A stretch of DNA of 64,000 nucleotides, from the NCBI RefSeq assembly GCF_000217815.1, contig NC_015707.1, forward strand, positions 806,001-870,000. The letters are read 5' to 3'. The notes beneath the pieces are model-generated. The model was not told the DNA's origin and made no database searches. It was given only the letters and a program-made list of their open reading frames with translations. This DNA is from Pseudothermotoga thermarum DSM 5069 (GTDB taxonomy: Bacteria > Thermotogota > Thermotogae > Thermotogales > DSM-5069). The translations under genes were made by a program, and so were the position numbers. Within the stretch, counting starts at the first letter, position 1. Every line of letters starts with the position of its first letter. Shown in pieces: positions 6,475 through 8,895 of this stretch.

Positions 6475-6696
6475 ATGGATTATGCCAGGTATATCAAGGC
6501 CATAGAGAGAGCCGTTAACAACATTGCGACGAAAATGGAAAAAACCGAGATAAGTATCGACGAGATTTGGATTGAAACTTCTATTCCTGAGGATCTCATT
6601 GTTGAATTGATCCAAAATTTTCCTGTGGAATTTCCCCCAAATGTGACTCTCATAACCTCAAAAAAAGGCATCGTTTGGAAACGTAAAGAAACTTGA
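6475..6696 (+). CDS. Small hypothetical protein between pyrR and priA
   Basis: 73-residue protein that I do not recognise. It has an N-terminal amphipathic helix (YIKAIERAVNNIATKMEKT), then ISIDEIWIETSIPEDLIVELIQNF, which resembles a small helix-turn-helix-like unit, and a short basic C-terminus ending KRKET. It has no signal peptide and no cysteines. It is supported as a real gene by GGAGGA upstream of the ATG and by tight spacing, 3 nt on each side, between pyrR and priA on the same strand. A DNA-binding or PriA-accessory role is only a guess from position. Confidence 0.6.
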   Translation: MDYARYIKAIERAVNNIATKMEKTEISIDEIWIETSIPEDLIVELIQNFPVEFPPNVTLITSKKGIVWKRKET

Positions 6697-6699
6697 AGA

Positions 6700-8895
6700 A
6701 TGTTTTACCGCGTAGCCATTTCCAAAATTTCCGTTGATGAAACTTTTGTCTATAGTTCGGATGTAAAGTTGGAAATAGGTGAAAGAGTAATCGTTGATTT
6801 TCATGGAAGAAAGGTTAAAGGCTACGTTGTGGAAGAATCCGAAGCACCAGGTCGAAAAATAAAGCCAATTTTGGAGCGTTTGGATGGATTCAGTTTTCTT
6901 TCCGAAAACGATGTTTTGCTCGCAAAATGGATATCCGAACAATATCTTGTTCCAATCGGTAAGGTATTTGATTTGCTTCTCCCTTCTTATATCGACAAAT
7001 ACTTGGAAACTTTTGTTGAACCGACAACAGAATTGATAGGATTAAAAAGAACAAAGCTTCAAGATTTTTTGAAGACAAGATCAGAAGAAGATTTGAAGAT
7101 GCTCCTGAAAAAGGGATACGTAAGGTTGAGTAAATCAAAGGAAGCAATTAAAATGCCAAGAATACCAGCAGAGAAGACATTTGTGATTTTAACTGACGAT
7201 CTGTCAAAGCTTTTGCACAAAGTTGAGAATGAGATCGAGTACGATGTGTTGAATTATCTTTCACTTGCAAAAGTGTCAAAAACAGAAGACTTGATAAACG
7301 CCCTTGGAATCAGCATGAAAGAACTTGAAAAAATGGTTTTAAAAGGCATCATTCGTTTTTCAAGCTTGGCCCTTCCGGTAGAAAGCATTGCTAGTCGTGA
7401 AGGTTCTTTGCGCTTTCATCTTGAAAATAACGCGATTTTGATATTCGGGCAGGATGACATAGCAAGGTTCAAGTTTGTAATCCCGAAAATTTCCGAGGTA
7501 CTCAGCCAAGGTAAGTCTATTTTGTTCCTTTCGCCATATGTTTCACAAGCCGTTAAACTTGCCGGAATTGCAAACGTCGTTTTCGAGCAAAGATCAATAG
7601 TTTTTCACGCGAACCTTACCGATGCCAGGAAAACTTTCGCTTGGTTGAGTGCTTACACAGGAAAACCAGCGATATTCTTTGCAACGCGTGCAGGGGTTTT
7701 TTTACCGATAAAAAATTTAGGATTGATTGTGATTGAGAGTGAAGAGGAAGAATCTTATTATCAAATGCATGAACCCATTTATGATGCAGTGGAAATCGCC
7801 TGGAAAAAAGCCGAGTTTTTTAAAGTACCGCTGATTGCGCTTTCTGCTTCTGGTAGGCTGAAAACTTTTGTAAGAGTTGAAAAAAATAGCAGATACGATA
7901 TATCGGTGAAAAACACCAATGTGATCATTGAAAAACTCCGTGAAAAACAAATAGTTTCACCTAAAATGCTGGAAGAAATAGACAGAAAACTTCGTGAAGG
8001 TTACGGAGCGCTGATCATAACCAGAAGAAAAGGGTATGCACCATACGTTATTTGTTTTGTTTGTGAAACTTTGGTTAAATGCCCAAATTGCGATGTTCCT
8101 TTATCGTATCACAAACTGAAACATACGTTGAAGTGTCATTTGTGTGGTTGGGAGGAGCAAGCCGTTAGAAATTGCCCAAAATGTGGTGCCCCAGCCTTGT
8201 ATCCTATAGGTTTTGGTGGAGAACGATTGGAAAGAGTTTTGAAGTATCACATACCGGAAGCTGTGATACGATTTTTAGATGTTGAAGAATACGATGAAAA
8301 ATCATTGTTGGAATCTTTGATCAAATTCGAAGTTGGTCAAACTGATGTTTTGATCGTAACTCAACCAATCGCACATCTTGTGAGTTTATCGCGGGTTGGC
8401 TTTGTTGGAATTACAAACATTGACAGCTTCTTAAATCAACCGGATTATTCCTCCACAGAACGCATGATTCAGTTTGTTAGAAAGATCACTCAACTTGGTG
8501 CAAAAGTAACTGTATTAATTCAAGTTCGAAATATCGATCCAGGGATTATAACATCATACATCAATGAGCCTTTAGAAAATCTTTACGAATCGGAGCTACT
8601 TCGCAGGAAAGAAAGCAAATATCCGCCTTATTGTGATATTGTTCAAGTGATCTTGGAATCGCACGATGCAGCTATCGGGTGGGAAATCATTCAAGATTTT
8701 GCGGCAAAATTGCAAATGGCAGAAATACTTGGACCAGTTGAACATCCAATGTTTAAGGTGGGGGGAAAGTACAGATATCATTTCATTGCCAAAACTCAGC
8801 AACTTAAGTTAACGCTTGAAGAAATAAGGCGACAGTACAAACTTGTTGGAAAACACGGGATAAAAGTTCTTGTGAATCCACCTAGATTGGTGTAA
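6700..8895 (+). CDS. priA: PriA-like primosomal protein with degenerate ATPase motifs
   Basis: 731 residues, close to normal PriA length. The N-terminal 3'-DNA-binding domain is recognisable (to about residue 105), and eight zinc-ligand cysteines are intact: CFVC, CPNC, CHLC and CPKC at about residues 450-500. The C-terminal PriA domain (KESKYPPYCDIVQ) is also present. The helicase motifs are lost: Walker A is GQDDIAR at residues 250-256 instead of a GSGKT type, the DEEH box reads ESEE, and the motif VI RAGR region reads KITQLGA. It therefore probably loads replication proteins at stalled forks without helicase activity, as proposed for actinobacterial PriA. No frameshift is visible. Confidence 0.85.
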   Translation: MFYRVAISKISVDETFVYSSDVKLEIGERVIVDFHGRKVKGYVVEESEAPGRKIKPILERLDGFSFLSENDVLLAKWISEQYLVPIGKVFDLLLPSYIDKYLETFVEPTTELIGLKRTKLQDFLKTRSEEDLKMLLKKGYVRLSKSKEAIKMPRIPAEKTFVILTDDLSKLLHKVENEIEYDVLNYLSLAKVSKTEDLINALGISMKELEKMVLKGIIRFSSLALPVESIASREGSLRFHLENNAILIFGQDDIARFKFVIPKISEVLSQGKSILFLSPYVSQAVKLAGIANVVFEQRSIVFHANLTDARKTFAWLSAYTGKPAIFFATRAGVFLPIKNLGLIVIESEEEESYYQMHEPIYDAVEIAWKKAEFFKVPLIALSASGRLKTFVRVEKNSRYDISVKNTNVIIEKLREKQIVSPKMLEEIDRKLREGYGALIITRRKGYAPYVICFVCETLVKCPNCDVPLSYHKLKHTLKCHLCGWEEQAVRNCPKCGAPALYPIGFGGERLERVLKYHIPEAVIRFLDVEEYDEKSLLESLIKFEVGQTDVLIVTQPIAHLVSLSRVGFVGITNIDSFLNQPDYSSTERMIQFVRKITQLGAKVTVLIQVRNIDPGIITSYINEPLENLYESELLRRKESKYPPYCDIVQVILESHDAAIGWEIIQDFAAKLQMAEILGPVEHPMFKVGGKYRYHFIAKTQQLKLTLEEIRRQYKLVGKHGIKVLVNPPRLV

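Follow-up and report, generated by a model that had tools for sequence, protein, structure and literature searches.

The PriA of Actinobacteria is said to lack helicase motifs. In Deinococcus radiodurans, PriA has been assayed as a pseudohelicase: the lysine of its P-loop is replaced with arginine, and the protein has neither ATPase nor unwinding activity, binds forks, and has evidence of binding to DnaB (PMC4504706). The same 2015 study, which showed motif logos from 100 PriA proteins of 18 phyla, described Deinococcus-Thermus as notable exceptions (PMC4504706). In E. coli PriA, the K230R substitution alone abolishes ATPase activity (PMC4504706). E. coli remains viable and assembles primosomes with an ATPase-dead PriA (PMC4504706; PMC10175261), and the ATPase activity is dispensable for PriA-PriB restart in vivo (PMC10175261). 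Fork binding reshapes E. coli PriA, in that the cysteine-rich region (CRR) and HD2 move and, together with the C-terminal domain (CTD), frame a pore around the lagging-strand ssDNA (PMC10175261). Actinobacterial PriA is smaller and very divergent (PMC1193525). As far as its accessible text goes, the literature that names PriA and Pseudothermotoga together concerns acetate-oxidising bacteria.

The window analyzed here, a 64,000-nucleotide stretch of the Pseudothermotoga thermarum DSM 5069 genome, contains a priA gene for which an initial annotation had given positions 7380-8540; these cover the helicase lobes only, and the whole gene extends beyond them on both sides (Table 1). The product has the 3' DNA-binding domain (3'BD), the PriA zinc ribbon and the C-terminal domain in order, all above the Pfam cut-offs (PriA_3primeBD, Zn_ribbon_PriA, PriA_C), and scores 282 bits with NCBIfam TIGR00595, for which the cut-off is 230. 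A single PriA is encoded in the genome, a contig of 2,039,943 bases. An intact second PriA, which the initial annotation had named as evidence against its reading, was not found in the 2.04-Mb genome, and the further matches to intact PriA were weak (E 1.6e-7 or worse) and represent other helicase-like frames. As a single-copy gene whose clade matches the grouping of the genomes, the gene of the window is a priA ortholog.

Table 1. Features of the priA locus (positions are those of the window; residues are those of the priA product).
Feature	Position	Strand	Remarks
73-aa ORF	6475..6696	+	stop 3 bases before priA; neighbour only
priA, 731 aa	6700..8895	+	predicted pseudohelicase; sole PriA of the genome
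3'BD, residues 9-95	6724..6984	+	Pfam PF17764, E 6e-19; used in rate analysis
Former Walker A, residues 250-257	7447..7470	+	GxTGSGKT replaced by GQDDIARF; P-loop Lys is R256 in all ten family members
Motif Ia, residues 279-282	7534..7545	+	PE to PY; Glu gone in 10/10 of the family, kept in 44/44 others
Former Walker B/DEEH, residues 345-349	7732..7746	+	reads IESEE; Asp is E346 and the His is gone in all ten family members
SYYQ segment adjoining motif II, residues 352-355	7753..7764	+	YYQ invariant in the family (10/10)
Motif III, residues 382-385	7843..7854	+	SATP to SASG; from alignment
CRR, eight zinc cysteines, residues 452-495	8053..8184	+	Pfam PF18319; low dN
Motif V, residues 553-562	8356..8385	+	VTQPIAH in place of GT(K/R)MxxK; Lys absent from all ten family members
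Motif VI site, residues 595-601	8482..8502	+	QxxGRxGR erased; last Arg deleted in 10/10
CTD, residues 643-715	8626..8844	+	Pfam PF18074; used in rate analysis

The initial annotation had described Walker A, DEEH, motif V and motif VI as lost and the eight zinc cysteines as kept, and this is what we see in the 731-residue frame and in an alignment. The degenerate motifs read GQDDIAR at residues 250-256, ESEE at 346-349 and VTQPIAHL at 553-560, while the GRAGR of motif VI is absent, in part by deletion; the zinc cysteines are present at residues 452, 455, 461, 464, 479, 482, 492 and 495. A search of 61 genomes of the class for the PriA zinc ribbon returned one match each in 58, with that in genome G001 below the cut-off; the G001 match had no PriA similarity, and this incomplete genome was excluded. 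The alignment comprised 54 full-length or near-full-length PriAs, 10 from the GTDB family of the window (Pseudothermotoga; f1) and 44 from other Thermotogota families.

The ATPase motifs were lost in all ten PriAs of the Pseudothermotoga family, whereas the catalytic residues were retained in 44 of 44 from the other families. The P-loop lysine was replaced with Arg throughout the family and was Lys in every sequence outside it, and the Thr of GKT (44/44 outside) was replaced with Phe, Val or Leu. At DEEH, the aspartate was Glu in 10/10 (Asp in 44/44 outside) and the His had become Glu or Asp in 10/10, and the motif V lysine (again 44/44 outside) was His or Gln. Both motif VI arginines were present in 44/44 outside; all ten family members had another residue at the first and a deletion at the second. 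All eight zinc cysteines were invariant in 54 of 54 sequences (10/10 in the family, 44/44 outside). Thus, Walker A GxxGxGK[ST], a DExH motif II and the motif VI arginines, by which active SF2 helicases are recognized, are all missing from Pseudothermotoga-family PriA. Because ten of ten family members have the motif loss and none of the 44 outside does, it is not the product of chance or sequencing error. The loss that the initial annotation had noted in this PriA is shared by the whole Pseudothermotoga family; in other Thermotogota the motor is intact. Named relatives with a PriA like that of the window are two metagenome-assembled genomes labelled Pseudothermotoga and one labelled Thermotogota. 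Within the family, only the window's PriA lacks the glycine of motif V, with VTQ in place of G[TS][RK].

The Pseudothermotoga-family PriAs form a single clade with full support. In a tree rooted on the PriAs of Bacillus, Bacteroides and Enterobacter, the family was monophyletic (100/100) inside the Thermotogales and adjoined two helicase-intact families. Since the family is nested in helicase-intact Thermotogales, the ATPase motifs were lost a single time, in the ancestor shared by the Pseudothermotoga family, and the gene was passed on vertically. The P-loop Lys to Arg change is common to Deinococcus-Thermus, as it would be had priA been acquired from a lineage with an already dead PriA (Deinococcus-Thermus or Actinobacteria), but the nesting within Thermotogales at 100/100 against non-Thermotogota outgroups makes such an acquisition extremely improbable in a tree whose sampling Deinococcus-Thermus lies outside. 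The window's PriA is the most divergent of the family, with an end branch of 1.12-1.19 compared with 0.02-0.44 for the other members.

In the two family members nearest to each other, the dN/dS of priA was 0.10, and in the second-nearest pair 0.12; it was low in every domain and similar to that of active PriAs. With catalytic motifs gone and the gene under purifying selection, the family PriA resembles, at the sequence level, the pseudohelicase of Deinococcus. The distance ratio of lobe 1 to 3'BD was 1.55 in the Pseudothermotoga family (5-95% of pairs 1.20-2.05) compared with 0.50 (upper bound 0.64) and 0.53 (upper bound 0.70) in two active sister families, ratios that, like those that follow, are descriptive, the genome pairs not being independent. 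With RecG from the same genomes as a rate yardstick, the ratio for lobe 1 was 2.92 in the Pseudothermotoga family versus 1.65 and 1.38 in the active sister families, that for 3'BD was 1.93 versus 3.35 and 2.53, and that for CTD was 1.61 versus 2.51 and 2.58; the lobe/other ratio within RecG itself was unchanged across families (0.43-0.45). Relative to RecG, the ATPase lobes have thus evolved about twice as fast in the Pseudothermotoga family as in the active families, and 3'BD and CTD more slowly. These shifts indicate that the motor was freed from constraint and that the DNA-binding parts became more constrained.

The faster ATPase lobes and the long branch of the window's PriA (1.12-1.19) could also be read as decay of priA, with restart handled by other proteins while the frame persists by inertia. 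However, the dN/dS of about 0.1, the full-length frame open in 10/10 genomes, the invariance of the eight cysteines and the slowing of 3'BD and CTD below the rates of active families speak against decay, which the selection tests disfavour and which we regard as highly improbable. The proposal in the initial annotation that selection preserved DNA and SSB binding is upheld as far as the DNA-binding and zinc domains are concerned; on residue conservation, SSB binding is putative. The SSB-pocket positions of Klebsiella PriA are only partly conserved in the window's PriA and are not conserved across the aligned Thermotogales. The SSB of the genome has an acidic tail with the end ...ENPDEPPF.

R256, which is basic, and E346, which is acidic, take the places of the P-loop lysine and the Mg-binding aspartate in 10/10 family members, so that neither of these two sites of the pocket is free to drift. 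Such fixation would suit a remodelled site that still binds, or slowly hydrolyses, ATP and acts as a conformational switch instead of a motor. This switch is nevertheless improbable, as the family has lost the GSG glycines, the Thr/Ser and the motif VI arginines, does not retain the catalytic Glu in every member, and K230R by itself is sufficient to kill the E. coli ATPase (PMC4504706). A further reading, in which restart is ATP-independent at the PriA step, PriA being a pure fork-recognition clamp that recruits DciA-DnaB directly and Arg256 and Glu346 forming a permanent structural contact in place of the ATP site, is rather unlikely. The AlphaFold model of the product (mean pLDDT 61, pTM 0.42) is too weak for pocket geometry; Foldseek with this model returned PriA as the best match and nothing beyond that confirmation.

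Among possible partners, DciA was found in 26 of 27 genomes searched, alike in families with active and dead PriA, and DnaD in none of the genomes searched, so that a gained loader or DnaD-type partner was ruled out. IstB/DnaC-type matches were weak and common to the families, except for insertion-element-like copies in two f3 genomes. The genome of the window has DciA, a RecG with intact motifs and one UvrD/PcrA/Rep-like helicase with an intact P-loop. A compensating extra UvrD-type helicase was ruled out, as there is one in f1 and f2 alike. Overall, the set examined (RecG, UvrD-type helicase, DciA, SSB and DnaD) is the same in kind as in the active sister families, the UvrD extras of f3 aside, and offers no substitute for the motor. 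These extras are long UvrD_C proteins (about 1000-1200 aa; PF13361 search) that occur in most f3 genomes searched and in none of f1 or f2, and are perhaps AddAB- or RecB-like. The RecG P-loop reads GDVGCGKT for GDVGSGKT in 6 of 10 family members (L082, L093, L099, L106, L107 and L109) and in one f2 genome.

The product of the 73-aa ORF upstream of priA had no Pfam or NCBIfam match. Of the 61 Thermotogota genomes searched, 57 have relatives, usually a single copy; these lie beside priA in the Pseudothermotoga family and at other places in most of the remaining genomes (in L127, behind dnaJ). A family-specific PriA partner was ruled out for this ORF, which occurs class-wide and mostly apart from priA.

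We propose that Pseudothermotoga PriA is very probably a vertically inherited ortholog that lost ATP hydrolysis once and has been selected since as a pseudohelicase, an ATP-independent fork-recognition scaffold that helps load DnaB. The loss of ATPase activity is strongly predicted from the motifs, and we infer that the protein keeps fork binding and hands off DnaB. Recognition of an abandoned fork or D-loop would fall to 3'BD, CRR and CTD, with the lagging-strand ssDNA held in the CRR/HD2/CTD pore. PriA would help a DciA-type loader, through a putative DciA/DnaB link, to put DnaB on ssDNA that may be pre-existing or may be exposed by another helicase (RecG or the UvrD/PcrA-like protein). Restart would accordingly either be confined to forks with lagging-side ssDNA or borrow another helicase. 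The initial annotation had expected the loss to change how restart works, but it need not change much, since ATPase-dead E. coli PriA supports primosome assembly and viability (PMC4504706; PMC10175261).

The motor loss in Pseudothermotoga is independent of that in Deinococcus, where a PriA pseudohelicase itself was already known. In a thermophile with motor-bearing close relatives, it offers a further natural experiment in which the PriA motor is dispensable and fork recognition is probably retained. Motor-bearing and motorless sister families, which have similar partner sets among the families tested, make it directly testable what the helicase of PriA is for. It also raises an annotation issue, as NCBIfam TIGR00595 labels Pseudothermotoga PriA a helicase.

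E. coli and Klebsiella PriA (PDB 4nl4, 6dgd, 8fak) are the top PDB matches of the window's PriA by sequence and fold, and share with it the order 3'BD-WH-HD1-HD2/CRR-CTD and the eight cysteines; unlike it, they are active ATPases and helicases. Actinobacterial PriA (PRK14873 type) is likewise a PriA ortholog, but is smaller; the window's PriA scores 332 bits with PRK05580 and 282 bits with TIGR00595, but 87 bits or less with the Actinobacterial-type PRK14873. The initial annotation had cited Actinobacteria as the precedent, and Deinococcus-Thermus is the better one, with an assayed pseudohelicase and the same P-loop Arg (PMC4504706). The PriA of Pseudothermotoga differs from that of Deinococcus-Thermus in belonging to a separate lineage and in having motif VI erased (partly deleted) and the motif V Lys lost. 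Like Deinococcus-Thermus PriA, it has the P-loop Lys to Arg change and a degenerate Walker B and has kept the DNA-binding parts, and the most economical reading is that it would work like D. radiodurans PriA.
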